Origin: Nitrospirota bacterium
Lineage (GTDB): Bacteria; Nitrospirota; Thermodesulfovibrionia; Thermodesulfovibrionales; JdFR-88
Assembly (NCBI GenBank): GCA_021789215.1
Contig: JAJYJS010000009.1
Location: 1 to 64,000, forward strand
DNA: 64,000 nucleotides
Direction: 5' to 3'
In this document: in pieces, positions 1,465 through 58,061 of the stretch
Position numbering within the stretch: position 1 is the stretch's first letter
How the letters are laid out: each line of letters opens with the position of its first letter
Made by a program: the position numbers and the translations under genes
The notes under the pieces: model-generated
The model's input: the letters and a program-made list of their open reading frames with translations, nothing else
Database searches by the model: none
Told to the model about the DNA's origin: nothing

Positions 1465-1492
1465 TTGCCTTTAACCCTACCCTCTTCTGTCA

Positions 1493-2251
1493 TTATCCGA
1501 ACCTGCCTGTAACGTAATCTTCCGTGAGCTTCTCCCTGGGGACCGTGAACATCGCCTCGGTCCTGCCGAACTCGATGAGCTCGCCAAGCATAAGGAACCC
1601 GGTCCATTCGGACACCCTCGCGGCCTGCTGGAGATTGTGCGTAACGATTATGATTGTAACATTTTTTTTAAGCTCTTCAAGAAGTTCTTCTATTTTTGCC
1701 GTTGAAATAGGGTCCAGCGCCGACGTGGGCTCGTCGAAGAGGAGCGCCTCGGGCTCTACCGCAAGGGCCCTGGCAATCACGAGCCGCTGCTGCTGGCCTC
1801 CGGAGAGGGCATACGCGCTCTGGTGCAGCTTGTCTTTTACCTCCTCCCACAGCGCGGACTGCTTCAGCGCGTGCTCCACCTTTTCCGAAAGCAGGGACTT
1901 CTTTTTCACGCCCCGCAGCCTCATGCCATATGCGATGTTGTCGAATATGGTCATCGGAAAAGGCGTGGGCTTCTGGAAGACCATCCCTATCCGGCTCCTC
2001 AGGTCTATGAGGTCCATGTCCTTTGCAAGGATGTTCCTCTGCTGGAATATTATCTCGCCCTCATAGCGGTTGCCCGGATAGAGGTCGTGCATCCGGTTGA
2101 AACAGCGCAGGAGGGTGGTCTTGCCGCATCCCGAAGGCCCTATGAGCGCAGTGACCGTGTTCTTGTAAATGCTCAGGTTTATGTTCTGGAGCACCAGGTG
2201 GCTGCCCGCGTAGTAGAAGTTAAGGTCCTTCACTTCCATGTCAAGTGTCAT
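1493..2251 (-). CDS. pstB: Phosphate ABC transporter ATP-binding protein PstB
   Basis: PstB is the ATPase that powers high-affinity phosphate import through PstC/PstA. In the 252-residue product the Walker A motif is GPSGCGKTT (38-46), the ABC signature LSGGQQQR (149-156) and Walker B ALLFDEP (169-175). The reading frame stays open upstream to 2338, but the ATG at 2251 was chosen because it forms a four-base ATGA overlap with the pstA stop and gives the usual PstB length. Translational coupling with pstA is likely. Confidence 0.95.
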
Positions 2252-3096
2252 TTCCTGCCGTACCTCATTCTTATTATCAGTTTGCCCGTTATCGTAATGA
2301 CGAGTATGAAGAATGTTATCACAAGGGCCGCCGCCCATGCCTGCCTGTGCCAGTCATCGTAGGGGCCCATCGCGTACTGGAATATTGTCACCGTGAGAGA
2401 GGAAATGGGGTTGTTCATGTCAGTCGAGAAGAAATTGTTGTTGAAGGACGTGAAAAGCAGCGGAGCAGTCTCCCCTGCCACCCTGGCAATCGAAAGCAAT
2501 ATGCCCGTCAGGATGCCAGTTGCGGCCCCCCTGTAAACCACCTGTATGATGACCTTGTAATAAGGGGCGCCAAGGGCGAAGGCGGCCTCCCTCAGCGTCC
2601 ACGGGACCAGCGTGAGCATGTTCTCGGTGGTCCTGAGGACGACCGGTATCATTATTATCGCAAGCGCAAGCGCCCCGGCCCAGCCGCTGAAATGGCCCAG
2701 GGGCTTGACCATCCAGGCGTAAACGAATGTGCCGACAACTATCGTGGGCACGCTGACCATTATGTCCGAAAGCACGCTTATCAAACGGGCGAACTGTTTG
2801 CCCCTGGCATATTCAGCCAGAAAAGTGCCGCCGAGCACGCCTATCGGAACGCCGATCACCGTGGCGAAAACCGTTATAAGGAGCTGCCCCACGAAGGCGT
2901 TCTTGAGGCCGCCGCCCGACACGCCCGGAGGGGCCGGATTGTTTAAAAAAAGGCTCAGGTTAAGCGCGCTGGCCCCCTGCACAATCACGTCCCCGATTAT
3001 GAAAACAAGCCAGAAAAGCCCCAGCAAAGTGGCAAGGGCGCTCAGCGAGAGCGCAATGAAACTTTTTGCCTTTCTTATCCGTTCCCTGTTTATCAT
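2248..3096 (-). CDS. pstA: Phosphate ABC transporter permease PstA
   Basis: PstA is one of two inner-membrane permease subunits of the phosphate importer. The 282-residue protein has a cytoplasmic basic N-terminus, about six hydrophobic helices and the EAA coupling loop near residues 172-195 ([14 protein letters not shown]), which contacts PstB. It overlaps pstC upstream and pstB downstream by four bases (ATGA at both junctions), so the three subunits are probably made in a fixed ratio. Confidence 0.95.
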
Positions 3097-4070
3097 CTAG
3101 AGGCCGTGCTCTTTTCAGTTTTAATGAGGAAAAGCTTGGCCACGGCAAGGATTATAAAGCTGAATATGAACAGCAGGAGCGCCAGATAGAACAGGGATGA
3201 AAGATAGATATCCGAGCTTGCCTCCGTGAACTCGTTTGCAAGGGTCACCGTTATGGTCGCCGCGGCATCGAGCAGGGATGACGTTATCTGGTGGTTGTTG
3301 CCGAGCACGAACGCCACGGCCATTGTCTCGCCAAGCGCCCTGCCCAATGAAAGTATCACGCCGCCCGCAATGCCCAGCTTGGAATAGGGGATAACGATAT
3401 TGCTTACAACCTCCCATTTTGTCGCGCCTACCGCGTATGCGGACTCCTTTATTATCGCCGGGGCCAGGTTGAACGCGTCCCTTGAGATGCTGGCCGTAAA
3501 GGGGATTATCATTATGCTGAGTATGACGCTTGCCGTGAGCAGGTCTATGCCCATCGGGGTGCCCTGAAAAAGCACGCCCACGACCGGCAGCTTGCCTATT
3601 GTATCTATCAGGGCCGGTTCTATGTAGTTCTGCATTATGGGGGCAAGAGTAAAAAGCCCCCACATCCCGTATATTATGCTCGGGATGGCCGCCAGAAGCT
3701 CGATTGCCACTCCCATGGGCCCCTTAAGAAAATCCGGGGCGATTTCAGTTATGAATATGGCTATCCCGAGCGCGACGGGAATGGCTATCGCAAGCGAGAG
3801 CAAGGTTGTTATTAATGTGCCGTAGATGTTGGTGGCCGCGCCAAAAACATCTCTTACCGGGTCCCACTCCTTCGAAAAAATGAACCTGAAAAAGCCGAAT
3901 GTCTTTATCGCAAGGGCTGACTGCTGGAACAATACATACAGGATGCCCAGAAAAACGGCAACCGTGGACAGCGCGGCAAGCGCGGTCAGGCCGGTGAAGG
4001 TTATGTCAACCGGATTCCTTTTATAAAACGGTATTTTTATTAAAGCCAATTTATCATTTCCAAAGGGCAT
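3093..4070 (-). CDS. pstC: Phosphate ABC transporter permease PstC
   Basis: PstC pairs with PstA to form the phosphate channel. The 325-residue product has an N-terminal helix near residues 25-50, a periplasmic stretch, then the permease core with the EAA-like loop KESAYAVGATKWEV. The ATG at 4070 has no recognisable Shine-Dalgarno sequence. Just upstream lies the inverted repeat at 4075-4111, which may lower pstC expression relative to pstS. A downstream TTG (codon 8) is an alternative start. Confidence 0.92.
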   Translation of the reverse strand: MPFGNDKLALIKIPFYKRNPVDITFTGLTALAALSTVAVFLGILYVLFQQSALAIKTFGFFRFIFSKEWDPVRDVFGAATNIYGTLITTLLSLAIAIPVALGIAIFITEIAPDFLKGPMGVAIELLAAIPSIIYGMWGLFTLAPIMQNYIEPALIDTIGKLPVVGVLFQGTPMGIDLLTASVILSIMIIPFTASISRDAFNLAPAIIKESAYAVGATKWEVVSNIVIPYSKLGIAGGVILSLGRALGETMAVAFVLGNNHQITSSLLDAAATITVTLANEFTEASSDIYLSSLFYLALLLFIFSFIILAVAKLFLIKTEKSTASR

Positions 4071-4074
4071 TTTT

Positions 4075-4111
4075 AAACGGGCCAGGATATATTAAGCTCC
4101 CCGGCCCGTTT
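4075..4111 (-). promoter_or_regulatory. Inverted repeat between pstS and pstC
   Basis: A perfect 9-bp inverted repeat (AAACGGGCC at 4075-4083, GGCCCGTTT at 4103-4111) encloses a 19-base loop. It lies in the 63-bp gap between the pstS stop and the pstC start. On the mRNA strand only three U residues follow the stem, so it is not a strong intrinsic terminator. It more likely attenuates or processes the transcript, as intercistronic stem-loops after binding-protein genes often do. On the plus strand it is followed by seven T residues. Confidence 0.6.
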
Positions 4112-4133
4112 TTTTCAATTTTCAATCCTCTTT

Positions 4134-5153
4134 TTAATACACACCCTCTTTCTTCCAATAGCCCCTGATTTTTTCCTTCAGAGAGGCCGGAAGCGGGACA
4201 TACGCGAGGTTCTCCGCAGTCCTGTCCCCATTTTTGAATGCCCAGTCAAAGAACCTGGCCACTTTCTTATTCGCGGCGGGCTGCTCTTTGGAGAGCAGTA
4301 TGAATGTCGCCCCGGCTATCGGCCATGCGTTCCTGCCAGGGGCATTGACCATCCAGAGATAAAAATCCTTTCTGGGGTCGAAATTGGCCGTGGCGGCCGC
4401 TTCCTTGAAGGTCGCGAAGGTGGGCGCGACGAAATTGCCGGCGGCGTTTTTAAGAAGGGTGTATGTCATCCTGTTCTGCAGGGCATAGGCAAACTCCACA
4501 TAGCCTATCGAGTAAGATGTCCTCTTTACGTAATTGGAAACACCCTCGCTTCCCTTGCCGCCGATGCCCACGGGCCAGTTCACGGCATTTCCTGAACCGA
4601 CCCTCGTCTTCCAGTCCCTGCACACCTCGCTCAGGTACGTCGTGAATATGGCCGTTGTGCCAGACCCCTCCGACCTGTGCACCACCGTTATCGGCCTGTG
4701 CGGCAGATTCATTCCCCTGTTCAACGAGGTAATCCTCGTGTCGTCCCAGAATTTGATGTTGCCAAGGAATATGGCGCAGAGGGTGTTTGGGTCCAGCTTA
4801 AGGGCCCCGGGCCGCATCCCGGGCATGTTAACGACTATGACCACGCCGCCCATTACAGCAGGGAACTGAAGAAGCCTGTCCCTTTTGAGCTTCTCCGGCT
4901 TCAGCGGCTCGTCGGACGCCCCGAAGTCCACCGTCCTGTTGATTATCTGCTGCTGCCCGCCGCCCGAGCCTATGGACTGATAATTGAGCTGTACGCCCGT
5001 AGACCTGTTATAGGCATATGCCCAGGCAGAGTATATGGGGTATGCGAAAGTGGACCCCGCCCCGTTCATGGCCGCTGCCGCAAAGGCCAGGCCGGATGCA
5101 AGCACGATTATTGAAAGCACCGCGGCCAGAACCATCTTCAACGATGTCTTCAT
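4134..5153 (-). CDS. pstS: Periplasmic phosphate-binding protein PstS
   Basis: PstS captures phosphate in the periplasm and delivers it to PstC/PstA. The 339-residue precursor has a Sec signal peptide (1 to about 28, ending AFAAAA) and the PstS phosphate-contact motifs GAGSTF (31-36) and RSEGSGTT (160-167). An AGGAGG ribosome-binding site lies seven bases before the ATG (5160-5165 on the plus strand). It is the first gene of the pst operon and follows a Pho box and -10, so strong induction on phosphate starvation is expected. Confidence 0.96.
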   Translation of the reverse strand: MKTSLKMVLAAVLSIIVLASGLAFAAAAMNGAGSTFAYPIYSAWAYAYNRSTGVQLNYQSIGSGGGQQQIINRTVDFGASDEPLKPEKLKRDRLLQFPAVMGGVVIVVNMPGMRPGALKLDPNTLCAIFLGNIKFWDDTRITSLNRGMNLPHRPITVVHRSEGSGTTAIFTTYLSEVCRDWKTRVGSGNAVNWPVGIGGKGSEGVSNYVKRTSYSIGYVEFAYALQNRMTYTLLKNAAGNFVAPTFATFKEAAATANFDPRKDFYLWMVNAPGRNAWPIAGATFILLSKEQPAANKKVARFFDWAFKNGDRTAENLAYVPLPASLKEKIRGYWKKEGVY

Positions 5154-5195
5154 CTGCGTCCTCCTTGTTGATGCATATTCATTTTGTTTTTTAAA

Positions 5196-5240
5196 ATTAT
5201 AGGGGAGGAATATTACAGGAGTGTTACAGGAGTGTTAATT
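5196..5240 (-). promoter_or_regulatory. Pho box and -10 element of the pst operon
   Basis: Read on the minus strand, two direct repeats CTGTAAC (5223-5229) and CTGTAAT (5212-5218) are separated by four bases, giving an 11-bp period. A third degenerate copy (5234-5240) lies one period upstream. Exactly 10 bp after the last repeat is a perfect TATAAT (5196-5201). This reproduces the enterobacterial Pho box, in which CTGTCAT repeats replace the -35 element. PhoB binding here should drive pstSCAB-phoU. Confidence 0.85.
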
Positions 5241-5256
5241 TTGGTCTGATGGCTTT

Positions 5257-6501
5257 TTATTTTATGTAGATGCGCACGGAGGTGCCCTTGCCCAGGTCGC
5301 TGTCTATGTGCATCTTCCAGCCCTGCGCAAGTATCAGGTGTTTAACAATCGCAAGCCCCAGGCCCGTGCCGCCAAGCTCGCGCGAGCGGGAAGGGTCCAC
5401 CCGGAAAAACCTCTCTCCCAGCCTGGAGATGTATTTCTTCGGCACGCCTATGCCTGTGTCCGAAACCGTAAGGACGCACTGCCAGTTGTCCGCCTCCCTC
5501 GCCCTGATGATGAGGCCGCCAGAGTCCGTGTATTTGATGGCGTTGTCAAGCAGGTTCACCAGTATTTGCATCAGCCGTTCCGGGTCGGCGTCTATCGAGT
5601 CGCACTCTATGTCTTTTTTCAGGTAAAGGCCTTTCGACGAAGCCTTTTCCTCAAACAGTGAAAACACGTTGTCAACTATTCCGGGAAGCGAAACGGCCTT
5701 TTTCTCTATCGGCACCGCCCCGAATTCTATCTTCGAGAGCACTATCAGGTCTTTTATGAGCTGCTCCATCCGCTCCGACTGGAACTTTATCGTGTTCAGG
5801 AACCTTACCGAGTCCTCCCTGTTGTCGAGCGCCCCGTCCAGCAGTGTCTCTGCAAACCCCTTAATGGCCGTAACGGGCGTCTTCAGCTCATGGGACACGT
5901 TGGCGACAAAATCACGCCTTATCTCGTCTATCCTCTTTTCAGCCGTTATATCGCGGGCGACAAGCACAGAGCCCGCATAGTGCTCCTGCGGGCCGGAAAA
6001 GGGGAATGCGCTTACGCTTATGTACTTGGAGTCTATCGTGAAGATTTCGCTTTTCCCGGCGCCGTTTTCCCTGGCATTGCCGATGAGCTTGTTCAACCCG
6101 GTCACGTTCAGGGCCTCGGCAAGCCTCCTGCCCGAAATGCCCGCACCCTTCACGTTGAAAATCCCCTCAAGCGACGGATTGACCGTTTTTATCCTGTTTT
6201 TTGAATCGACGAGTATGATGCCGTCCGGAGTGCTTTTCATCAGCACGTCCATCCTGCGCCTCAGTTCTTCGGCCTCCTTTATCCTGTCCTGAAGGTTGGC
6301 CGCAAGTATGCTCAGGTTGGTCATAATTCTGGGGAAGCCGTGTTTCCCCTTGAGGTAAAGCCTCTTTTCGAGATTGCCTTTGGCCAGTTCCTCTATGAAC
6401 CCGCCAAGCTCCCGGAGCCGCCTGAAGGTGAAGAGCCCTCTTACCGCAATGTAGACCACCGCAACCAGAATTATGAAGAGCGCGAATTCGAGCGTTATCA
6501 T
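5257..6501 (-). CDS. phoR: Phosphate-regulon sensor histidine kinase PhoR
   Basis: PhoR phosphorylates PhoB when phosphate is scarce. The 414-residue protein has one N-terminal membrane helix (about 3-22) with no periplasmic domain, a HAMP-like linker (about 28-80), a PAS domain (about 83-190), the dimerisation helix with phospho-acceptor His204 in SHELKTP, and a C-terminal ATPase domain with NLLDNAIKYT, DTGIGVP and GGTGLGLAIVK. Lack of an external domain fits the family, which senses transport status through PstSCAB/PhoU. Its ATG overlaps the phoB stop (ATGA). Confidence 0.93.
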   Translation of the reverse strand: MITLEFALFIILVAVVYIAVRGLFTFRRLRELGGFIEELAKGNLEKRLYLKGKHGFPRIMTNLSILAANLQDRIKEAEELRRRMDVLMKSTPDGIILVDSKNRIKTVNPSLEGIFNVKGAGISGRRLAEALNVTGLNKLIGNARENGAGKSEIFTIDSKYISVSAFPFSGPQEHYAGSVLVARDITAEKRIDEIRRDFVANVSHELKTPVTAIKGFAETLLDGALDNREDSVRFLNTIKFQSERMEQLIKDLIVLSKIEFGAVPIEKKAVSLPGIVDNVFSLFEEKASSKGLYLKKDIECDSIDADPERLMQILVNLLDNAIKYTDSGGLIIRAREADNWQCVLTVSDTGIGVPKKYISRLGERFFRVDPSRSRELGGTGLGLAIVKHLILAQGWKMHIDSDLGKGTSVRIYIK

Positions 6502-7214
6502 CCTTTTTTCCCGCCCGCCTCGCGGGTGAAATAATACCCTATGCCTCTTTTTGTCAGTATGTATTCCGGATTGGACGGGTCGTCCTCTATCTTCTCTCTC
6601 AGCCTCCTTACGTGTACGTCGACCGTCCGGGGCTCCACATATGACTCGTCGCCCCAGACGGCATCCAGAAGGAAATCGCGGCTCATGACCTTGCCGGGCC
6701 GTTGGGCAAGGTAGAGGAGCAGCTTGAACTCCATTGCGCTAAGCTCGACGGATTTGCCATCCTTCATGACAGAATACCTATCGGGGTCTATGACAAGCTT
6801 GCCTGCGCTAATAAGGCCCGGTTCCGTTCCGGAAACAGGGGTGTAGCGCCTCAGGACCGCCTTGACCCGCGCCATAAGCTCCCGGGGGCTGAAGGGCTTG
6901 GTGACGTAGTCGTCCGCCCCAAGCTCAAGGCCCAGGACCTTGTCTATCTCCTCGGAGCGGGCGGTGAGCATTATCACCGGAATGCCCGCCGTGTCTTTTC
7001 CGGACTTTATCAGGCGGCACAGCTCAAGCCCGTCCATGCCCGGCAGCATGAGGTCAAGCAGGATCAGGCCGATGCCCCCCTTCCGGATCTTCCCCAGGGC
7101 ATCCAGGCCGTCCCTGGAGGACTCGGTAGAATAGCCCTGCTTCCTGAGGTTGTATTCTATCAGCTCCCTTATATCGGCTTCATCCTCCACTATGAGGACC
7201 TTCTTGATGTTCAT
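6498..7214 (-). CDS. phoB: Phosphate-regulon response regulator PhoB
   Basis: This 238-residue OmpR-class regulator has a receiver domain (acidic pair E10/D11, phospho-acceptor Asp54 in LLDLMLPGMDG, Lys in VTKPFSPREL) and a C-terminal winged helix ending in the R-G-I-G-Y motif. Its position directly before phoR and the pst genes identifies it as PhoB, the expected ligand of the Pho box at 5212-5229. No Shine-Dalgarno sequence is visible before the ATG; a possible promoter lies close upstream. Confidence 0.93.
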   Translation of the reverse strand: MNIKKVLIVEDEADIRELIEYNLRKQGYSTESSRDGLDALGKIRKGGIGLILLDLMLPGMDGLELCRLIKSGKDTAGIPVIMLTARSEEIDKVLGLELGADDYVTKPFSPRELMARVKAVLRRYTPVSGTEPGLISAGKLVIDPDRYSVMKDGKSVELSAMEFKLLLYLAQRPGKVMSRDFLLDAVWGDESYVEPRTVDVHVRRLREKIEDDPSNPEYILTKRGIGYYFTREAGGKKG

Positions 7215-46512: not shown

Positions 46513-46881
46513 TTATTTGCTTAAAAAATCGCCAACAAGCTTTACGAGCTGCTGGGTCTGGACGGGTTTTGTGAGATAGGCATTGGCGCCGATGGAAAGT
46601 GCCCTCTTCTTGTCTTCCTCGGCCCCCTCAGTGGTAATCATGATTATGGGGATTTCCTTGTAAGCAGGGTTGCCCCTTACGAGGCTCACAAGCTTCAGCC
46701 CGTCCATCACGGGCATGTTTATGTCGGCAAGGATGAGGTCCACGCCGTTTGAAGAAAGCTTCTTCAGCGCGTCAACTCCGTCTGTGGCCTCTATCACTTT
46801 GGAAGCGGGCACACGGCGCATGGCGAAGCTTATGAGCTGTCTCATCGTAGGGGAATCTTCAACTACCAGGATATTGGGCAT
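46513..46881 (-). CDS. CheY-like single-domain response regulator
   Basis: The 122-residue protein is a bare receiver domain: acidic pair E8/D9, phospho-acceptor Asp in LILADINMPVMDG, Thr in IMITTEG and Lys in YLTKPVQ. It is the likely phosphorylation target of the chemosensory system encoded upstream, either as output or as a phosphate sink. No output domain is attached. Confidence 0.9.
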   Translation of the reverse strand: MPNILVVEDSPTMRQLISFAMRRVPASKVIEATDGVDALKKLSSNGVDLILADINMPVMDGLKLVSLVRGNPAYKEIPIIMITTEGAEEDKKRALSIGANAYLTKPVQTQQLVKLVGDFLSK

Positions 46882-46887
46882 CCGCCT

Positions 46888-47703
46888 CTATCTCCTGGGC
46901 TTGTCCTTGAGCAGGTCGAGAAAACCCTGTATCGTGGAAAGCTTTCTCTCGGACTGCGTGTAAAGCTTGGATGAAAAAATAGCTGTCGCCGCATGCCCCG
47001 CGAGCAGATTGAAAAGCTCGTAATCGACATGGGAAAAGCTCCGCTTCTGCACAAGGAGCGAATATATGGCGATAACGCCTATCACGTGCTCTTTTATCTT
47101 GAGCGGGATGCACACTATCGGCTCATCCGGTTTCCTGGAGGACGCCTCAATGTTTTCAGAGAAATAGCTGTCCCCCTCCTTTGCCACTTTCCCTATAAGC
47201 CCTTCCCCGATGACGACCCGCGGCAATTCGGAAGCGGAGATGCCCTCAGCGGCAACAGCCTCAAGCTCGTTCGTCTTTTCATCGACAAGATACAGGCCGA
47301 AGCATTCGGCCCCGATGAGATTTATCACTATTTCCAGCACGATCCTCAGCACCTCGGAGAAATCGAGCGTCGAATGGAGCTGGTAACTGGCCACATAGAG
47401 GTTTGCAAGGTTGTTGTTTTCCTCCTCAACCTCCAGGTATTTGGAGGCAAAATCCTTGTTCTCCTCCTCAACCTGCATAAACCTTTCCTTAAGGGACTTG
47501 AGCTCGTCCTCCAGAAGTTTTATGCGGTTTGCATAAACCCCGGCGCGGGCCTCCTCGCCGCCCCTGGCAAGCATCTCCTCAACTTCTGCAAGCTTGAAGC
47601 GCAGGCGTTCGTTCTCGCGGAGGATGTCTTTGGTGAATTCCTCGCCTTTCTTGAATACCTGGAGAAATTCGTCAGCCTTCTTTATGATGCTGCCTTCTTC
47701 CAT
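46888..47703 (-). CDS. Coiled-coil and GAF-domain protein
   Basis: The 271-residue soluble protein has an N-terminal coiled coil (about 20-100, heptads with ENERLRFKLAEVEEML and EENKDFASKYLEVEEENNNLA) and a GAF domain (about 110-250: LVDEKTNELEAVAAEG, GLIGKVAKEGDSYF, IPLKIKEHVIGVIAIYS). No catalytic output domain follows. It lies between cheB and cheY and could pass a cytosolic ligand signal to the array; the ligand is unknown. Confidence 0.8.
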   Translation of the reverse strand: MEEGSIIKKADEFLQVFKKGEEFTKDILRENERLRFKLAEVEEMLARGGEEARAGVYANRIKLLEDELKSLKERFMQVEEENKDFASKYLEVEEENNNLANLYVASYQLHSTLDFSEVLRIVLEIVINLIGAECFGLYLVDEKTNELEAVAAEGISASELPRVVIGEGLIGKVAKEGDSYFSENIEASSRKPDEPIVCIPLKIKEHVIGVIAIYSLLVQKRSFSHVDYELFNLLAGHAATAIFSSKLYTQSERKLSTIQGFLDLLKDKPRR

Positions 47704-47704
47704 T

Positions 47705-48751
47705 TCACCTTCCAGTCTTTGCTATCCTGATCATCTCGGGCGGTATATCGGTTAAAGGAAGCACTTTCATGGCCGCTCCGGCCTTTATGGCCTCCTGCGG
47801 CATCCCGAAGACAACCGCGGTCTCCCTCGATTCCGCTATAGTATAACCGCCTTTCGATTTTATTTCCAACATGCCCTGCCTGCCGTCACTGCCCATTCCG
47901 GTAAGCAAAACTCCTATTGAACGCTCCCCGCACACTTCCGCAACAGAGGCCATCATTATATCCACCGAGGGGGTGTACCTGTCCTCCTTCGAGGCGTCCT
48001 TCAGAAAGATCTTCGTTTTTCCGGCCCTCTTTTTCAGGACCAGATGGCAGGCCCCCGGGCAGATAAAGGCGCGGCCAGGTTCTATTACGTCCCCCCCTTC
48101 CGCCTCCTTTATGCTGATGTTAGAGAGCTTGTTAAGCCTTTCGGCAAGCGGTCCGGTAAACCCCTTTGGCATGTGCTGGCTTATCACTATGCCCGCAGGA
48201 AAATCCTCCGGCATCCTCGTGAGTATTATCTGGAGCGCGGCCGGCCCTCCCGTCGACGAGCCTATCGCCACGACGTCAACGGTGTTTTCCGCAACCGGGA
48301 CCGGCTTTTCGATGGCCGGTTCCAGCAGGCGGATGTTCTTGCTCAGCACCTCCATATTGAGCCCGCGCACTGCGTTCACCTTCTGTTTGAGGTCCTTTTC
48401 TATGCCTTTCAGGTCTACCGATGCCCTTTTTGAGGGCTTGTTTATGAAATCGATTGCCCCCAGTTCGAGCGCCTTGAAAACCGTTTTGGTATCGGAGTAT
48501 GAGCTGACTATTATCACGGCCGTCGGCTTCTGTATCATTATCCACCGGAGAAAACTGAACCCGTCCATCTCCGGCATTTCCAGGTCGAGCGTAATGAGGT
48601 CCGGCTTCAGCCGCATCGTCTTTGCGATTGCGTCTATGCCATTGCCGGCAAGGCCGATGACCTCCACGCCCGGACACTCTTCGAGTATCCTCCTGATCGT
48701 CTGGCGGCTGAATGCGGAATCGTCAACAACAAGCGCCCTGAGAGTTTTCAT
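47705..48751 (-). CDS. cheB: Chemoreceptor methylesterase CheB
   Basis: CheB demethylates or deamidates receptor glutamates. The 348-residue protein has a receiver domain (phospho-acceptor Asp in LDLEMPEMDG) and a methylesterase domain with the triad in IGSSTGGP (Ser), ISQHMPKGFT (His) and LLTGMGSDG (Asp). The ATG at 48751 overlaps the cheR stop (ATGA); a GTG four codons upstream is a weaker option. Confidence 0.94.
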   Translation of the reverse strand: MKTLRALVVDDSAFSRQTIRRILEECPGVEVIGLAGNGIDAIAKTMRLKPDLITLDLEMPEMDGFSFLRWIMIQKPTAVIIVSSYSDTKTVFKALELGAIDFINKPSKRASVDLKGIEKDLKQKVNAVRGLNMEVLSKNIRLLEPAIEKPVPVAENTVDVVAIGSSTGGPAALQIILTRMPEDFPAGIVISQHMPKGFTGPLAERLNKLSNISIKEAEGGDVIEPGRAFICPGACHLVLKKRAGKTKIFLKDASKEDRYTPSVDIMMASVAEVCGERSIGVLLTGMGSDGRQGMLEIKSKGGYTIAESRETAVVFGMPQEAIKAGAAMKVLPLTDIPPEMIRIAKTGR

Positions 48752-49647
48752 TTGTCGCTCCACATGAACCCGGCGGGCGGGCGTGCCGTCGCGCCCTTCC
48801 CGTCCGGCTTCTGGTATCCGATGTCGTTTTTAAGGTGTTTAAGCGTGAACGCCGTCGATATGTTTATCAGGGATTCGGCGTGGCCCAGCATGAGATAGCC
48901 CAGGTCTGAAAGCCTGGTGTAAAAATTTTCGATGACTTTTTTCCTGGATTCGGGATCGAAGTAAATTAGCACATTCCGGCAGAAGATTATGTCCACGGTG
49001 CCAACGAACCGGACCTTCAGCGGGTCCATAAGGTTTATGCAGCTGAAGTCGACAAAGCGCCTGACGGAGTCCTTAATCCTGTAAAGGCCATCGCCCTCCG
49101 CCTCGAAATATTTCTTAATGTAGTAATCCTCCGTGGTCCTGAAAGAGTTTTTCCTGTAAACACCCTTTCTGGCCGTCTGCAACACCCGCTGATTTATGTC
49201 GCTTGCCACTATAACCACGTCCCAGCCCTTTTCCGGAAGGCCCTTTTCCATGGCAAGCATAGCCAGAGTGTACGGCTCTTCTCCCGATGAGCACCCCGCG
49301 GACCATATCCTCAATTTCCTGTCTTTCCTGAGACCCGTGAACTCTTCAAGCAACTCGTCGGAAAAGGCCTTTAATTGCGCCTGCTCCCGGAAGAAATAGG
49401 TCTCGTTTACGGTCAGGTTGTCCATGACCGCCGCAAGCTCCTCGCCCCTGTTCCTGCCGTAGAGCAACAGCCGGTAGTAATCCCTGAAGTTGTCGAGGTG
49501 ATGGGCCTCTATACGCCTGGAAAGCCTCTTCTCAAGGAGGAACCGGGAGGAGTCATCGAAATAGATGCCGCAGTAGTCCTTTATCAGATCCCTTAAAAGC
49601 CTGAACTCCTCTTCGGGCAGCTTTATTATTTTTTCGTTTTCAAACAT
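48748..49647 (-). CDS. cheR: Chemoreceptor methyltransferase CheR
   Basis: CheR methylates receptor glutamates using SAM. The 299-residue protein has an N-terminal helical domain with NETYFFRE, then the SAM motif WSAGCSSGEEPYTLAM, ASDINQRVL and IIFCRNVLIYFD. It is coupled to cheB downstream and overlaps the HEAT-repeat gene by eight bases. Confidence 0.94.
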   Translation of the reverse strand: MFENEKIIKLPEEEFRLLRDLIKDYCGIYFDDSSRFLLEKRLSRRIEAHHLDNFRDYYRLLLYGRNRGEELAAVMDNLTVNETYFFREQAQLKAFSDELLEEFTGLRKDRKLRIWSAGCSSGEEPYTLAMLAMEKGLPEKGWDVVIVASDINQRVLQTARKGVYRKNSFRTTEDYYIKKYFEAEGDGLYRIKDSVRRFVDFSCINLMDPLKVRFVGTVDIIFCRNVLIYFDPESRKKVIENFYTRLSDLGYLMLGHAESLINISTAFTLKHLKNDIGYQKPDGKGATARPPAGFMWSDK

Positions 49648-51643
49648 TTCCGGTTTTCAGAAGACCTTCAAGCGCCTTCCTCACGACAGGGTCGTCTTCT
49701 GTGTCAAGGAGGGATTCAAGCTCCCCTGCGGAATAGTCCTGTCCCGCAAGCACCTCGACGGCGGCCATCCTTGTCGCCCAGTCCGGGTCTTTTACAAAGC
49801 GGAGGGCGCAATCCTTCACATCCCTGAACCCTGCGAGGGCCTTCAGGGCCGTCCTCCTGATTTCGAGGTCGTCTGATGAAAGCATGCTCAGGAGGGCCTC
49901 CCTTGCCGCGTCCCCACCGATCCTGCCCAGGGCGTTCATCGCCGCGGTAATCACAAAGCCGTTCTTGTCATAGAGGAGCCGGACAAGACAGTGCACCGCT
50001 TCCTTCTTCCCCAGAGCGCCCAATGCCTTTGCCGAAACGGCCCTGACTATGTCCTCAGGGTCGCCGGAGAGGATGCACAGCGGCTCGAAAGCGGCATCGC
50101 TTCCGGAGGAACCCAGCGAGATTGCGGCAGACGCCCTGATATCCGGATTCTCGTCGGCAAGCGCAAGTATCAGATATCTTATCGACTCCGGTGTTTTCAG
50201 GGCGGACAGGGAAGCTATTACCGCCTTCCTGACCTCAATATTTTCGTCCTTCATCGCGAAGCCAAGCCCCGGAATGGCCTGTTTTGCCCCGATTTTTCCT
50301 ATCAGGTATGCCGTGTTCTTCCTTATAACGGCCTGCTTGCTTTCCAGGCCTTTTAGTATCCCCGGAAGATCGAGCCCTTCCTTGAGCTTGGCCAGGGAAT
50401 CGACCGCGGCCTCCTGGACATCGGCATACATGTCGTTCAAAAGCCCCCTGATATGCGGTATGCCCCTCGAGTCCCCAATCGCGGCAAGTCCGCGGCAGGC
50501 AATCGCCCTGACGTGGCCGTCCTCATCTTTAAGCAGCTTTAGAAAAGCATCGTAATAAAGCGGGCTGGCCGCACTGGCCGCCACGCTGGCCACAAATCTC
50601 CTTATATGCGGGTTGTCCCTTTCGAAAAGGGGCAGAAGGATTTCAGGTTTCGCCCTGCTTATGCAGACGAGCGCCTTGCCCGCATCGGCGGTAAAATCGC
50701 TTTCGAATGACAGCTCCAGCAGGCTTTCGACCGCCCTTTCGTCCTTGAGAAAGCCAAGCAGCAGGATTGCCGATATCTTCACTTCGGCCTTTATGCTGTG
50801 GGCGTGCCCGGTCAGCACCTGCACGGCCTCTTCGCCGTAACTGCTCCGTATGGCCCCCGCGATAAGGTCGGAGGGCGTGCCCCTGCGATGGATGCGCTCT
50901 ATTGACTTGAGCGCCTGCTCCTGTATCGTTTTTGAGGGGTCTTCCAGAAAAGGCGCGATGAGCCTTGCAGTCTCTCCGTCTCCAAGGGCCCCAAGCGCCT
51001 TCAGGGCAGGCTCCCTGAGCGCCTTCCTGTCAAGCGCCGCAAGAAGAGACGGAATGGCCCTTTTGTCCCCTATCCTGCCAAGTGCGTCCGCCGCCGGATA
51101 GGCCGTCCACAGGTCTCCGTTTTCAAGGATGTTCATCAGCGCGTCAACCACCGAAGGCTCTCCCATTGCGCCCAGGTGCTCCACAGCCGAGGCCCTTACG
51201 TTTTCGTCCTCGTCCTCCAGCGCTTCGAGCATTACAGGCAGGCTCCTGCGGTCCCTGAATTCCCCAAGCACGTCTATGATGAACTTCCTTACGTCCGTGT
51301 TCGCGGTTTTAAACGCGTTCACCAGGTAAGGAGTGGCCAGCCTGTTCAGGCGGGAGAGCATTTCTATGGAGGCGTTCCTGGCGCCCGCATTGTCTTCGAT
51401 GTACAAAAGGCCGATAAGCCCGCCGGCGTATTCCTCAAGGCTGAATTCATCGATAAGGAGGTCCTCGGCCGTCTTTCTTACACGCCAGCTCTGGTCAGTC
51501 AGGGCAACCAGGAGCGCTTCTGCACACTTTTTCCTCAGGTCCTTGTCATGGGAGCCGGTAAAAAAACCTTTAAGCGACAGGACAGCGGCACGCCTTATCT
51601 CGATGTCCGGATGCTTCAGATCTTTGTGCACTGCTTCAAGCAT
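49640..51643 (-). CDS. HEAT-repeat protein in the chemosensory operon
   Basis: The 667-residue protein is built almost entirely of about 18-20 HEAT/PBS-lyase-type helical repeats (recurring patterns such as DEDENVRASAVEHLGAMGE and DENPDIRASAAISLGSSGS). There is no signal peptide or enzyme motif. Such solenoids bind partners; CpcE-like HEAT proteins occur in some chemosensory clusters, for instance Myxococcus Che7. The ATG at 51643 overlaps the cheW stop by eight bases and has an AGAAGG site; the open frame upstream overlaps cheW and is unlikely to be used. Confidence 0.85.
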   Translation of the reverse strand: MLEAVHKDLKHPDIEIRRAAVLSLKGFFTGSHDKDLRKKCAEALLVALTDQSWRVRKTAEDLLIDEFSLEEYAGGLIGLLYIEDNAGARNASIEMLSRLNRLATPYLVNAFKTANTDVRKFIIDVLGEFRDRRSLPVMLEALEDEDENVRASAVEHLGAMGEPSVVDALMNILENGDLWTAYPAADALGRIGDKRAIPSLLAALDRKALREPALKALGALGDGETARLIAPFLEDPSKTIQEQALKSIERIHRRGTPSDLIAGAIRSSYGEEAVQVLTGHAHSIKAEVKISAILLLGFLKDERAVESLLELSFESDFTADAGKALVCISRAKPEILLPLFERDNPHIRRFVASVAASAASPLYYDAFLKLLKDEDGHVRAIACRGLAAIGDSRGIPHIRGLLNDMYADVQEAAVDSLAKLKEGLDLPGILKGLESKQAVIRKNTAYLIGKIGAKQAIPGLGFAMKDENIEVRKAVIASLSALKTPESIRYLILALADENPDIRASAAISLGSSGSDAAFEPLCILSGDPEDIVRAVSAKALGALGKKEAVHCLVRLLYDKNGFVITAAMNALGRIGGDAAREALLSMLSSDDLEIRRTALKALAGFRDVKDCALRFVKDPDWATRMAAVEVLAGQDYSAGELESLLDTEDDPVVRKALEGLLKTGNV

Positions 51644-52088
51644 CGCCTTCTCCGGCAATAAGGAGCAGCTTTTCTTCCGATGCCAGGACACGGCCCATAT
51701 CAAGCAGTATCGCCACCTCGTTTTTCGTCTTTGCGAGCCCTTTCAGGTATTCCATATGCAGGCCCTTGAAAACAGCAGGCGGAGGAAATATTTCCTTCTC
51801 GCTGAACCCCTTGATTTCGAACACCTCGTCAACAATGAGGCCCACCCTTTCCCTGCCGTTTTTCACTATTATGATGCGCTCCTTTTGGGGCTCGGGGGCG
51901 ATGCCGAACCTTTTTCTCATATCCATGACGGGTATTACCGCCCCCCTTAGTGTTATAACCCCGGCAATATAACCGGGCATCTCGGGAAGACGGTTCACTT
52001 TGATGGAATCAAGAATCTCGACTACCTGGCCGATCCCGATGCCGAACAGTTCGCGGCCAGCCCTGAAAATGATATACTTATCGCTCAA
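51636..52088 (-). CDS. cheW: CheW coupling protein (first copy)
   Basis: CheW links receptors to the kinase CheA. The 150-residue single-domain protein has the CheW core: FRAGRELFGIGIGQVVEIL, LPEMPGYIAGVITLRGAVIPVMDMRKRFG and VGLIVDEVFEIKGF. The start is a TTG in a TTGA overlap with the upstream chemoreceptor stop; no ATG or GTG is available before the conserved core. Confidence 0.9.
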   Translation of the reverse strand: MSDKYIIFRAGRELFGIGIGQVVEILDSIKVNRLPEMPGYIAGVITLRGAVIPVMDMRKRFGIAPEPQKERIIIVKNGRERVGLIVDEVFEIKGFSEKEIFPPPAVFKGLHMEYLKGLAKTKNEVAILLDMGRVLASEEKLLLIAGEGDA

Positions 52089-54109
52089 GTCCTGAATGTC
52101 TCCATTTCCTTGGTAAGGGCGATTATCTCGGAGTGCAGGGCCGATATCGAATGGGCCACATCCTCAACGTCCTTGAGCGTGCTCAAGCCGACGCTCTTTA
52201 TGCGCTCGACCGCCTGGACAATGTTCTCGTTGGATTTCTGCTGGCTCTGGACAGACTGGTTTATATCGGCTATCCTGTCATTGGCAATTTCCAGGTTCCC
52301 CGTTATGTGCTTTGTGCCGACCGCCTGTTCGCGCGTGCCCTTTTTGGTGGTCTCGGCAATCTCCTTGACCTCGCTCATCTTCTCCAGCATGTAATTGGAG
52401 CTTTTGAACTGCTCTTCCGTGGCGTGGGCCATCTTGTATATCATGTCCCTTATGCGGTCAATAGTGATCGTCATCTGGGAGAGCCCGCGGGCCTGCTCCT
52501 CCGTTGCCTTCTGGATGGAATGCGCCATTGAGGCGGAGTTTTGCGCCACGGTGACTATCTCGCCGGTGGAAGTGCCAGCCTTGTAGAACACCTGCTTGCC
52601 CGTTTCCATCATATCCATGGTCTCCTCGATAATCGAGACGACGTCCTTTATCTCGGTGTGTATAGTCCCGACTATGCCCTCGATGTCCTTTGTGGAGACC
52701 GCTGTCCGTTCGCTGAGGGCGTGTATCTCATCGGCGACGACGGAAAAACCCTTGCCATATTCGCCGGCCTGGGCGGCAAGTATCGCGGCGTTCAGGCTCA
52801 GGAGGTTTGTCTGCTCCGTCACGTTCTTGATCACCGACAGCATGCCTTCTATGTCCTTTGACCGCGCACCAAGCCTTGTGACCATTCCGACGGCGGACTG
52901 GACCTTTTCGGATATCTTCTCCATGGCGTCAATGGCTTCGGTCATCACTATCACGCCTTCCTCAGCGGCGACCTGCCGCACTTTTTCGGCAAGTTCGGTT
53001 GAGTCCTTTGCGCCCCGCTCTATTTCCCTTACGGAGGCGTTGATCTCCTCCACCGAAGCGGAAGTCTCCTCCACCGAGGTAAGCGCCTCCTGCGAGCTTT
53101 CGGCTATCCGCTTGGCCGTCTGGGAAAGCTCCGCTACAGCGGAATAGGAGTCGTCAACCGCCTGGAACAGCCTGTCCGTGCTGGCCGCTATCTCCTCCGA
53201 AGTGGCCTTCACCTCAAGGAGGGATGTCACGTTCTCGGTGGAAAACTCGGCCAGTTGTTCAGTCCCGGCCGTTATCTTGCGCTGGGACTCGGCCGCGATC
53301 CTGAGCGAGGTGGATATCTCCCCTATCGAGTTGCTCTGCGCCTCCATCCCTTTTTTAACGCTGTTGAATGTGCCGTTAAGCTGGGTAATGGCCCTGCTTA
53401 CATCTGCGGATGTGGCATTGAGTTTTTTTATGGTCCTCGCAAGGCTTTCCTTGAGGAATTTGAGCCCCGATCCTATGCCCCCTATTTCGTTGTCCTCGCC
53501 AGGGTCTATCTCGACGGCCAGGTCGCCGTCGGTTATGGCGCCAAGCCTTGCATTGAGCTTCTCCACAGGCCTGCCGACCTTTTTCTGGAAGAAGAAATAA
53601 ATGGCGTATATGATGAGTACAAAGACCAGCAGCTGCCCTATTGGCGCTATGGTAATCAGCCTTTCCAGGGCGAGGTTCGCATGGTCTCCGCTGTATTTGA
53701 TGCGGATGTTCCCTTCGTTCTGGCCGGAGGACGTGACTACAGGCAGGTCATAGGTGCTCTCGGCGGGCAGATACAGCAGCCTGAAGACCGCGCTCACATC
53801 CGTGGTGTCCGGCCTGAAGCTCTTCTGCCTGATTATGCCGCCGTCCCTGCCGGTAATGGTGACCGACAGGATGTCGTTGTCGGTTGACAGCGCGTCGATA
53901 TAGTTTTCCAGGTAACCGTAATTATTGCCGGTAATTGCGGCGTTGGAAACGCTCCCCAGAAGGAGAGCCGTCAGCCTTATTTTTTCGTCGAGCAGTTTCT
54001 CGTAATGTTTTTTCTGGCCTTGAAGGAACCAGACCCACAGCAGCCCCTGGCCTATTATCAGGATCATGAGCACGATAAGGATAAAGCTCCTGGACAGCGA
54101 TCTCCTCAT
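52085..54109 (-). CDS. Methyl-accepting chemotaxis protein with periplasmic sensor domain
   Basis: The 674-residue receptor has a first membrane helix (about 8-29), a periplasmic sensor region (about 30-155, with INAAITGNNYGYLENYI-type helices), a second helix (about 156-178), a HAMP domain and the cytoplasmic signalling rod, whose tip reads [38 protein letters not shown]. No PAS or ligand family was recognised in the sensor. The ATG at 54109 is used; a GTG one codon upstream is equally possible. Confidence 0.9.
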   Translation of the reverse strand: MRRSLSRSFILIVLMILIIGQGLLWVWFLQGQKKHYEKLLDEKIRLTALLLGSVSNAAITGNNYGYLENYIDALSTDNDILSVTITGRDGGIIRQKSFRPDTTDVSAVFRLLYLPAESTYDLPVVTSSGQNEGNIRIKYSGDHANLALERLITIAPIGQLLVFVLIIYAIYFFFQKKVGRPVEKLNARLGAITDGDLAVEIDPGEDNEIGGIGSGLKFLKESLARTIKKLNATSADVSRAITQLNGTFNSVKKGMEAQSNSIGEISTSLRIAAESQRKITAGTEQLAEFSTENVTSLLEVKATSEEIAASTDRLFQAVDDSYSAVAELSQTAKRIAESSQEALTSVEETSASVEEINASVREIERGAKDSTELAEKVRQVAAEEGVIVMTEAIDAMEKISEKVQSAVGMVTRLGARSKDIEGMLSVIKNVTEQTNLLSLNAAILAAQAGEYGKGFSVVADEIHALSERTAVSTKDIEGIVGTIHTEIKDVVSIIEETMDMMETGKQVFYKAGTSTGEIVTVAQNSASMAHSIQKATEEQARGLSQMTITIDRIRDMIYKMAHATEEQFKSSNYMLEKMSEVKEIAETTKKGTREQAVGTKHITGNLEIANDRIADINQSVQSQQKSNENIVQAVERIKSVGLSTLKDVEDVAHSISALHSEIIALTKEMETFRT

Positions 54110-54184
54110 CACTTGCAGGCCGCCCCGCTTCCGGAATAAATGGCATTGCCTACGATCATTTTTACCTCCCCGTTTATAATATTT

Positions 54185-57028
54185 TCAAAACATGCCTATG
54201 GAAGACATCATCTTCCTGATGCCGCTGAAGTCTTCATCCGATGCCTCCATGAACCCGGTGTAGCCGGGATCGATGGATTTCAGCACCGGGGAATCCGCCC
54301 CGCTCGAATTCAGCTCGGCAAGGGCCTTCTTCAGCCTGCGGACAGTCTCCTCATCCGTTTTGCCGGACACTATGTTGAACTCCGGTATCTCAGCCGAGAA
54401 TTTCAGGAATGTGAGCCCTTTGGCCTTGTACTTGTATGCGGTGGACTCCATCAGCCCGCCCGCATCGAATTCGCCTTTCAAGACAGCATCGGCGACGTCG
54501 TTGTGATGGCCCAGGTAATTGTAGTAGGAAAGGTCTTTGAGGTCGATGCCGTCTTCAAGCAGCATCGCCCTGGGCACTATGTGGCTGGACGTGGAGTTCT
54601 CGTCGCCGAAGGCGAACGATTTACCCTTGAGGTCCTTGAGCGATTTGATATGCCCGCCTTCCCTGGCCACAATAACCGAATGCTGGAAGGGCTTGCCCTC
54701 CCTCAGCGCCTTCACCAGCACCTTCACCCCGTATGTCTTGTTGGCCAGGATATAAGTGGATGGCGTCATGTAGCAGAAATCCACCATTCCCTGGCCTATT
54801 TCCTTTATGGCGGACTCAAAGTTCGAAGCGACCCTGAGCTCCACCTTCCTGTCCAGCTTCCGGGTAAGGTAGCCGGCAAGCGGGGCGAACTTCTTGTACA
54901 TCTCGACCGGGGACTCAAGAGGCGTGATGCCGAACCTGATGATATCCTTCCCGGACTCGGACAGCTTGAAACGCTCCATCTCCACGTTCAGGACCTCGGC
55001 ATCCTTGAGCAGCTCCCTCAACGAGCGGTTTATCCTGAAAGAAAGGTCCCGGCTCCGGCCGGGTATCTCCTTTATCTTCTCCACCGATGTCCATATCTGG
55101 TTGGAGCCGAGCTTCTGCTCATTTATAGCCTTGGATATGTGCTGGCTTTTTTCCGAGACCACCTCTATCGCGTTGGATATCTGGCGGCTGCTCTCAACCT
55201 GCTGGCTCGTGGTGTTTCTGACCTGGATGGAGGCGTCCCTCATCCTGTCAGCGGCAGTCGCTATCAACGCGACCCCTTTTGACTGCTCGGAAGTCGCCTG
55301 GGCCATGCGTCCGACCATTATCCTCACGCGCTCCAGCGATTCTGAAACCAGCTTGGCGGATTTCGCCTGCTCAGAGGTGGTCCGGTCTATCGACTTCACC
55401 ATCTCGGAGGATTTTGTCGAGCCCTCCAGTATCTTCTTGAGCGACCCCCCGGCCTCCCTGGTTATGGATATCCCGTCATCAACAGCCTTGATCCCCTCCC
55501 TCATCGCCTCGCCAGCCGTCTTGACCTCCAGCCTGACGCCATCTATGAGAGAGCCTATCTCCTGGGTGGAAAGCGCCGTCCTTTCCGCGAGGCTCTTTAT
55601 TTCATCGGCAACGACCGAAAAGCCTTTCCCCTTCTCCCCGGCCTGGGCGGCGAGAATGGCCGCGTTCAGGGCAAGGAGGGTCGTCTGTTCGGTTATTTCG
55701 TCTATGACTGTAAGTATCTTCCCTATTTCCTCTGAGCGGGTATCGAGCTTCTTGACAGCCTCACTGGTCTTCTCGACGGACGACTTTATCTTCTCCATGC
55801 CCTTTATCGTCTTGTCGATTGAGGAAACACCAAGGGTGGAGGCCTCTGTTGCGACCCGCTCGGAGAAGGTTGCTGAATCCCTGGCCTTCTGTTCCACTTC
55901 CTTGATTGAATGGATTATCTCCTCGACGGCTGAAAGCGTCTCGTCGGAAGTCTCCGCAAGCTCCTTGGCCCCTCCGGCCACCTCCCTGAGGGTTGCGGAG
56001 AGCTGTTCTATCGAGGAGCCTGTCTCGTCAACCGCTCCCGAAAGCTCGGTGGCCACCGTGGAAATGCTTTCGATGCTGGCGGCAATCTGCTCCACGGACG
56101 CGGCCGTCTGCTCCATGGACGCGGCAAGTCCGTCCACGCTTTCGGCTATCTCTGAAATGGAGGCGTTCAGTTCCTCGACGGATGTGGATATGTCGCCGAC
56201 CGCTTCGCTCTCAAGCTGAGTGAACTCTATCATCCGGCCGGAGTCCTTCTCGACGTTCTCGGTAACGTCCTCTATGCGCCTTGATATCTCCTTCACGCGG
56301 CGCAGTATATTGCTTATGGACGCGAGCGAGTTCCGTATGGAGTCCTGCAATTTGCCTATCTCATCTTCCGAATGGATGCTGGTCCTGAATGAAAGGTCTC
56401 CTTCGGCCAGTTTCCCTGCGGATTTTTCTATGTCCTTCACCGGCGCTATGACAAACCTGTTGAGTATGTACCAGAAGAGGACCGCAAGCAGGATGGCGCC
56501 GATTGCGCTGCCCGTGCCGATTTTGTAGGCGAACGCCTCTATCCTGCCGTATTCGTTGTCCAGCCTGGCGGACACGCGGACGACGCCCAGTATGCCGGGG
56601 AAACCGGAATGGCAGACCTTGCACTGCGGCTTGTTCTCAAGCGCCCTGTACAGTATGAGCCTGGTCTTGTCCTTCTCGAGTATGGGGCCGCCTTTTTCCT
56701 TGAGCCTGTTTATCATGTCCATCGCTTCCGGCGCGGCGCCGTTCTTGAAGGCCTCTTTCCCCTCCCAGTTGAAAAGCTTGACGGATTCGAGCGCCTTCAT
56801 CCTGCCCTGTTCGGGGATCATGAGCTTGACCACTTCGCTCTTGCCGGTCAGCATGGCGGTCTGTATGTCATTGAACAGCACGTCCGATACTGCATTGAGC
56901 CTTTGTTCCGCAAGCTGGTAAACGTCTTCACGCTGTTGGATCAGCACAAAGAAAGTTATGAAAATAATCCCCATGAACAGGATCAAAAAGCCTGCGCCAA
57001 GGATCTTGAATTCAAGCTTGTTTTTCAT
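54185..57028 (-). CDS. Chemoreceptor with CxxCH periplasmic sensor and C-terminal PhnD-type binding domain
   Basis: This 947-residue protein is built from five parts. Membrane helix 1 (about 9-30) leads to a periplasmic domain (about 31-170) with a single haem-c attachment motif CKVCH (136-140). Helix 2 (about 172-194) and a HAMP domain follow. The MCP signalling rod (about 230-690) has its tip at [30 protein letters not shown] (447-476). A complete PhnD/PtxB-type periplasmic-binding-protein domain (about 696-947) ends the chain, with [12 protein letters not shown] (808-819), YMTPSTYIL and LGHHNDV as the phosphonate-contact regions. MCP topology places this last domain in the cytoplasm. An AAGGAG site precedes the ATG, which overlaps the upstream cheW by 17 bases. 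Confidence 0.93.
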
Positions 57029-57881
57029 CGGGCTCCTTCGTTAGTTTCAGGACTTCACTGGATTTCATAATGGAAATGAACCTCCCCTCCCATAAGGCTA
57101 TGCCTTCTATGAACCTTACCTCCACATCGGACAAATGGGCGGGCGGCTCCTGGATTGAACTATCCGGGATTCTCACGACCTCATCGACGCTGTCCACCCA
57201 TACCCCTATGGAGCCCTTCGGGCCCCTCAGTATCAGCACCCTTGCATGTTTTTCAGGTGCATAGGCGCCACTCAGGCCAAGCCTTCTCCTCAGGTCTATG
57301 ACCGGTATTATCTTGCCCCTCAGGGAACTCACGCCGGTTACAAAAGCCTCCATGCGCGGCACCGCCGTTATCCGCTGCGGCTTTATTATCTCTTCTATCT
57401 CGTCCACCTTGAAGGCGTAATTCTCGCTGGCCAGCTTGAAGGAAAGGAACTCGCGGAGTTTTTCGTCCTCAGCCGCTTTGCCTTCGCCAAAAAAATCGTC
57501 TTCGGATTCCGCCTGGACCGGGGCTTGGGCGGCGTCAGCGGGAGATTGCGGTTGGGCCGCAACAGGCAATTCAGGCGGCTGATATTCAGCAGTGGCGTCA
57601 GCCTGAGGAGGCTCATCCGCCGGGATTTGGAAAGGCTCTTCAATATAGGCAGGGGGCATCTCAGGCGCGGACTCCTGCTCTTCCAGCCCCGGATAATCCG
57701 TGCCAGGCTCCGGAACGGAAACGGGCGGGGCCTTGACGCTTTCCACTACAGGTTCGCTTGCTTGCTCTGAAGGGAGTTCATCCGCCTGGCGGTTTTCATC
57801 TCTTGCTTCTTCCCTGGCCTCGTCCGGAGGACGCCTGCCCCCGGATTCCTTCAGCTTTTTTCTGAGCCTTGCAAGGTCCAT
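57012..57881 (-). CDS. CheW coupling protein with long Pro/Ala/Glu-rich N-terminal linker
   Basis: The 289-residue protein has a basic helix (1-15), a disordered Pro/Ala/Glu-rich region (about 20-140) and a C-terminal CheW domain (about 145-280: [51 protein letters not shown]). The long linker is absent from ordinary CheW. It is the first gene of the chemosensory operon. The ATG at 57881 follows a GGGAG; the frame is open upstream to 57947 but has no better start. Confidence 0.88.
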
Positions 57882-58061
57882 ATGCTCCCTTTTTAAAAAG
57901 TGACTAATTTTCACATAAATTACCGGAAAAAGTAAAGGAAAGTTCATGAATATCAGCTATTTAGAGGTATTTTTCAAAAATTGGCTTTAATTATCGCAAA
58001 TTAGCTCCGCCCGCGGCTTTTATTTGACTTTGGAAACGGACTGGGCTTAAACTTAATTTTC
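57882..58061. other. Divergent intergenic region cheW/argS
   Basis: This AT-rich stretch separates the chemosensory operon from argS. The right end holds the argS promoter. A promoter for the leftward cheW operon is expected here, but no convincing -35/-10 pair was picked out. No conserved motif or small gene was recognised. Confidence 0.4.
58024..58052 (+). promoter_or_regulatory. argS promoter, possibly leaderless
   Basis: TTGACT (58024-58029) and TTAAAC (58047-58052) are 17 bp apart. Only nine bases lie between the -10 and the argS ATG, with no Shine-Dalgarno sequence, so the mRNA may begin at or next to the start codon. Confidence 0.5.

Follow-up and report, generated by a model that had tools for sequence, protein, structure and literature searches.

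The DNA analysed here (the window) is a stretch of 64,000 nucleotides at the start of a contig from a Nitrospirota bacterium. On its minus strand lies a gene for a 947-residue chemoreceptor (MCP) in which the signalling rod is followed by a domain with the PhnD/PtxB fold. The features of this gene are as follows.

54185..57028 (-): MCP-PhnD receptor gene, 947 aa, ATG start (open reading frame and Pfam domains; architecture shared by 92 of 396 phylum genomes)
56948..57004 (-): first transmembrane helix (TM1), residues 9-27 (hydropathy; present in orthologs)
56519..56947 (-): heme-c Cache sensor domain, predicted to be periplasmic, residues 28-170 (PF21563, model, Foldseek match to GSU0935)
56609..56623 (-): CxxCH heme-attachment motif (CKVCH, residues 136-140); Cys, Cys and His invariant in 41 of 41 aligned sensor domains
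56456..56518 (-): second transmembrane helix (TM2), residues 171-191 (hydropathy)
56315..56464 (-): HAMP domain, residues 189-238 (PF00672, E 3e-9)
54965..56314 (-): cytoplasmic signalling hairpin, residues 239-688, tip at about 452-465 (PF00015; arm lengths constant in orthologs)
54188..54943 (-): C-terminal PhnD/PtxB-fold domain, residues 696-947 (PF12974, E 2e-59; model; Foldseek match to PtxB)
54587..54595 (-): S812-T813-S814 oxyanion motif, equivalent to PtxB S124-T125-S126 (S812 invariant in fused domains)
54503..54505 (-): H842, equivalent to PtxB H155 (His in 56 of 59)
54377..54379 (-): F884, replacing the capping Tyr203 of PtxB (Phe in 56 of 59; 61 of 64 in a larger set)
54917..54919 (-): L704, replacing the Asp16 by which PtxB holds its cap (a hydrophobic residue in every fused domain)

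The receptor has the two transmembrane helices, the HAMP domain and the signalling hairpin with a conserved tip (MCPsignal, E 3e-46 in Pfam) that are expected of an MCP. Genes for CheW, CheR and CheB adjoin it, and the cognate CheA gene lies on contig C20 of the same genome and is adjacent in most relatives. The Phosphonate-bd match spans residues 699-934 (E 2.3e-59; 201 bits, with the cut-off at 27). An earlier, sequence-only reading had described a two-helix MCP with a complete PhnD/PtxB-like domain after its rod and an STSS motif in that domain, and our analysis agrees: hydrophobic segments at about 9-27 and 171-191 precede the HAMP and MCPsignal matches, the Pfam result is matched by AlphaFold and Foldseek, and STSS lies at residues 812-815. 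Its coordinates, domain order and fold all stood; what it missed was the heme-c sensor, with CxxCH at residues 136-140, as well as the conservation of the architecture and the cognate CheA. Overall, the sequence supports the predicted structure, topology and modularity of the receptor well.

The outer domain matched Mcp40H-20_sensor (PF21563) in 40 of 41 orthologs, with Tll0287-like matched as well in 5; the window's own domain scored 26.7 bits against a cut-off of 27, and the others among the 41 aligned are only 17-39% identical to it. A model of the domain (pLDDT 86.3) had GSU0935 (3b42) as its best structural match (Foldseek E 6e-9), with a high r.m.s.d. that we attribute to the swapped dimer described for heme-c sensor domains of this kind (excerpt of PMC3460858). 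The fold also matched the Cache domain of WalK in the structure search. The domain thus has the CxxCH motif within a single Cache fold that is characteristic of sCache_heme and Mcp40H-20 domains, and it belongs to a recently described heme-containing Cache family. In that family, members joined to signalling modules act as NO sensors, and Phosphonate-bd is not listed among the frequent partners in the Figure 2 legend (excerpts of PMC12889525). On sequence and model, the outer domain is a recognisable heme-c sensor, which would be loaded with heme. The Geobacter chemoreceptors GSU0935 and GSU0582 likewise have a CxxCH sensor domain; however, the excerpted source on them mentions no C-terminal binding-protein domain, and the rod of the receptor described here has, by comparison, about 32 heptads per arm.

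Attachment of heme c takes place outside the cytoplasm. The heme domain thus fixes the predicted topology, with the outer domain in the periplasm and the HAMP domain and rod inside the cell. Beyond residue 570 of the 947-residue receptor the Kyte-Doolittle mean reaches no more than 0.72, so that hydropathy analysis shows no further hydrophobic segment there, and it shows neither a signal sequence nor a transmembrane segment before the PhnD domain; in the window receptor and its orthologs alike there are only two transmembrane segments. Because heme c is attached on the outer side and no third membrane segment follows, the sequence strongly indicates that the PhnD domain is cytoplasmic. The cytoplasmic C terminus that had been proposed is upheld by the same observations, by the placement of CxxCH on the opposite membrane face and by receptor forms with two adjacent transmembrane helices that keep the PhnD domain.

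An AlphaFold model of residues 688-947, built from 52 sequences, had a mean pLDDT of 94.7 and matched PtxB, ArrX, E. coli PhnD and HtxB (Foldseek E 1e-29 to 1e-23, TM about 0.8-0.86); with PtxB matched at E 1e-29, structure prediction bears out the fold assigned from the sequence. A sequence search of the PDB with the C-terminal part of the protein returned PtxB (E 1e-29), HtxB, ArrX, AioX and PhnD. The domain has the two-lobed binding-protein fold of PF12974, with S812, T813, S814 and H842 present in the window and mostly kept in relatives, and with E861 corresponding to PtxB E174. Against an overall identity of about 60% per column in the fused-domain alignment, S812 (59/59), H842 (56/59), E861 (58/59) and F884 (56/59) are near-invariant, whereas T813 and S814 are variable in some lineages. 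In superpositions, the model fits PtxB in its closed, ligand-bound state (TM 0.83) more closely than the apo form (0.68-0.70), a result to be read in the light of the fact that predictors often favour closed forms.

The pocket departs from that of PtxB in its latch, where a capping Tyr held by an Asp gives way to F884 and L704: the Asp16 position is hydrophobic in 64 of 64 fused domains and the Tyr203 position is Phe in 61 of the 64. Further pocket positions near the latch also differ. In Te_PtxB from Trichodesmium, the Tyr208Phe change shifted the Kd for phosphite from 0.17 to about 295 μM, with phosphate at more than 60 mM, and left essentially no binding of phosphate or methylphosphonate (PMC5700983); given the other pocket differences, transfer of these numbers to the fused domain is only suggestive. 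With the PtxB latch missing, ligand binding could be weak or gone.

The fused domain shares its fold and the S-T-S and His oxyanion residues with the ABC-transporter binding proteins PtxB, PhnD and HtxB. Unlike them, it is part of a larger protein, lacks a signal peptide, is predicted to be cytoplasmic and has Leu-Phe in place of the Asp-Tyr latch; nor did any partner permease PhnE score over the cut-off in its own genome, which is 89% complete. In the arsenic-related proteins ArrX and AioX, a PhnD-like fold serves sensing rather than uptake, as proposed here; ArrX is the closest match of the model by TM-score (0.84-0.86). ArrX and AioX are separate periplasmic proteins that act on a sensor histidine kinase, whereas here the fold is a domain of the receptor itself, inside the cell.

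The arms of the rod have constant lengths across orthologs. HAMP ends 225 residues before the hairpin tip in every long receptor with a matched tip motif, and 231-238 residues separate the tip from the first PhnD strand; the corresponding distances in short paralogs are 140 and 142 residues. The two arms are therefore symmetric, with about 32 heptads each in the long receptors and about 20 in the short paralogs. This symmetry suggests that the PhnD domain begins at the level of HAMP, next to the membrane, and by such arithmetic the domain would sit beside HAMP.

The receptor gene belongs to a chemosensory cluster, and the neighbouring genes in the window are listed below.

57012..57947 (-): CheW-like coupling protein with a long N-terminal extension (PF01584, E 7e-34; conserved upstream neighbour)
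52085..54112 (-): second MCP, 675 aa, absent from some relatives' clusters
51636..52088 (-): CheW (PF01584, E 3e-35)
49640..51703 (-): HEAT-repeat protein, 687 aa, a fixed member of the cluster (PF13646, E 6e-83; conserved)
48748..49647 (-): CheR methyltransferase (PF01739, E 2e-59)
47705..48763 (-): CheB methylesterase (PF01339, E 8e-63)
46888..47703 (-): coiled-coil and GAF protein (PF13492, E 2e-18; conserved)
46513..46881 (-): CheY-like receiver, 122 aa (open reading frame and sequence)

The end of the CheW-like gene overlaps the start of the receptor gene by 17 bases. Relatives carry, at the position of the window's CheY, a receiver of 120-125 aa that matches the CheB REC domain, and the gene order among them is DUF4388-CheY-CheA-AAA ATPase-CheW2-receptor-(second MCP)-CheW-HEAT-CheR-CheB-GAF-CheY; the fused architecture is usually found within this one conserved cluster. 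In the window's own genome, CheY, CheA and the AAA ATPase lie on contig C20 (L187:6411-9536) and the remaining cluster lies in the window. Near relatives also split the cluster over two contigs, and in other families it is continuous. The C20 CheA is 60% identical to the CheA of genome G044. The other CheA of the same genome is encoded on C35, a contig that also carries flagellin, so the flagellar pathway and that of the receptor's CheA are distinct. In this genome three PilT-family ATPases scored over the cut-off, and twitching or another non-flagellar output is our guess for the pathway.

Receptor and cognate CheA coincide in 68 of 150 genomes, with 1 genome having only the receptor and 5 only the CheA (Fisher p 2e-35, a value that overstates independence because the genomes are related; the CheA was counted in 73-74 genomes). 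Among the CheA-only exceptions, G143 is explained by a contig end, its receptor carrying the start of PhnD, and the other four have PhnD-less receptors.

The fusion recurs widely. Within the same order, 67 of 150 genomes have a PhnD domain in a frame of 790 aa or more, plus two that are cut short, and 59 sequences, including that of the window, were read and aligned. A match to the rod end plus PhnD at E <= 1e-55 is present in 92 of the 396 phylum genomes; the frames are almost all about 825-1000 aa long, with a few short paralogs and truncated or stand-alone frames among them. Recurrence in scores of genomes means that the fusion is not due to chance, and an assembly artefact was excluded on the same ground. 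Named records assign the architecture to Nitrospirota (Thermodesulfovibrionales and relatives). A scan of 84,980 species with one peptide pattern, of which the best 80 loci were kept so that rarer or more distant fusions could be missed, returned fusions from Nitrospirota and from records without a phylum name (L105 and L113). L105 is an uncultured bacterium record; L113:1582-4062, from the unassigned bin Dive96_bin10.193, encodes a PhnD-bearing receptor that lacks the outer domain and may come from outside Nitrospirota. In G163 (C59:29241-30275), the open frame that contains the receptor-PhnD match is 1417 aa long, far longer than in other genomes.

Natural variants separate the two sensors. 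Six receptors without the outer domain keep PhnD (frames of 825-839 aa, with two adjacent transmembrane helices where checked). Conversely, in G012, G050, G059 and G079 the same receptor, at the same position in the cluster, ends soon after residue 688 and has no PhnD domain; G012 retains the heme motif, and the other three lack both sensors. Relatives therefore show all four combinations: both sensors, the heme sensor alone, PhnD alone or no sensor. The independent loss of each domain points to separable inputs, the PhnD-less forms mark the domain boundary, and their existence indicates that PhnD is not required for the pathway. In a tree, the long receptors (L121, a 951-aa MCP, included) and the heme-less ones have fused PhnD domains that form a single group at 99/95, with the exception of heme-less L113, and the short forms with 20-heptad arms are a separate, fully supported group; PhnD may thus have been fused to receptors more than once. 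These short chemoreceptors (L085, L086, L087 and L088; 635-655-aa open reading frames) have about 20 heptads per arm, no outer domain and a C-terminal PhnD. On contig C13 (L089:7375-8964), the window's own genome also encodes a protein of 529 aa in which two PhnD domains stand in tandem and a single hydrophobic segment lies at the N terminus; similar tandem proteins occur in L143 and L164.

What the cytoplasmic domain does can be approached through the alternatives. It had been proposed from the sequence that the domain senses intracellular phosphonate, phosphite or phosphate and ties phosphorus metabolism to chemosignalling. Its fold, the mostly conserved S-T-S and His residues and a Pho regulon within the same window favour this; the Pho genes (PhoU, PstB, PstA, PstC, PstS, a PhoR-type kinase and a PhoB-type regulator, 784-7214) are real. 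However, they lie 47 kb away, no conserved link between receptor and Pho genes was found, and the receptor sits in a conserved che cluster, so the connection with the regulon was abandoned. Cytoplasmic phosphate is millimolar, and a tight phosphate site would therefore always be full. Moreover, Leu-Phe stands in place of Asp16-Tyr203, a change of the kind that strongly weakens phosphite binding in Te_PtxB (PMC5700983), and no PhnE scored over the cut-off in the 89%-complete genome; these pocket and transporter tests spoke against phosphite or phosphonate sensing as the main reading, and phosphorus sensing as a whole now appears quite unlikely. The characterised PhnD/PtxB proteins matched here are periplasmic (general knowledge; PMC5700983), which would favour a C-terminal domain that is exported or cleaved off to act as an ordinary periplasmic binding protein. 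This is highly improbable: neither a hydrophobic segment nor a signal sequence precedes the domain and the tip-to-domain length is nearly constant in all relatives, the two grounds on which it was rejected, and there is again no PhnE over the cut-off.

Alternatively, the fold may have lost ligand binding; at the base of the rod it would then have a structural or docking role, such as binding a partner protein. The missing latch, the variability of T813 and S814 in some lineages and the four genomes that have lost the domain from the same receptor without losing the pathway are consistent with such a role, but the near-invariance of S812, H842, E861 and F884 in a domain about 60% identical overall fits a kept pocket, as does, with the caveat about closed forms given above, the model's closer resemblance to ligand-bound PtxB; we consider a structural or docking role without ligand binding unlikely. 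If the domain binds a ligand, the compound would probably be small, cytoplasmic and anionic (an oxyanion or a phosphorylated compound). A weak site would suit a sensor that faces millimolar cytoplasmic anions, although this is speculation.

We think it probable that the protein is a receptor with two inputs, an outer heme sensor and a cytoplasmic binding domain for a small ligand, and that it serves a non-flagellar CheA pathway. The c-type-heme Cache domain outside the membrane would respond to redox state or to a gas, for instance NO, and its signal would pass through TM2 and HAMP. The two-lobed PhnD/PtxB-fold domain, fused where the ascending arm regains the level of HAMP, would bind a small cytoplasmic ligand, and the opening or closing of its lobes would alter how the rod packs near HAMP, thereby biasing the cognate CheA. 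The pathway (CheY-CheA-AAA ATPase-CheW2-receptor-CheW-HEAT-CheR-CheB-GAF-CheY) would operate apart from the flagellar cluster. With rather less confidence, and at slightly below even chances, we suggest a conserved receptor class in which a binding-protein fold has moved into the cytoplasm, sits at the end of the rod nearest HAMP, integrates an intracellular metabolite signal with an extracytoplasmic heme signal and has had its pocket, with the Leu-Phe cap, retuned to weak binding in the millimolar range, as would suit the cytoplasm.

Aer-type MCPs sense in the cytoplasm. So do HemAT and, for ethanol, McpB of B. subtilis (excerpt of PMC7542364), where the signal likewise enters the rod from inside the cell. 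These receptors have no two-lobed binding-protein domain, however, whereas the receptor described here pairs such a domain with an outer heme sensor. The open-licence papers searched contained no description of an MCP-PhnD fusion; as far as the open literature shows, the architecture is new, although each single part is ordinary.

PhnD-type folds normally bring outside nutrients to transporters or periplasmic receptors, and here one is apparently used inside the cell, in a phylum whose sensory biology is little studied. If our reading is true, one receptor combines a signal from outside the cell with one from inside it, and the four natural sensor combinations found in relatives make the logic of this signal integration directly testable.
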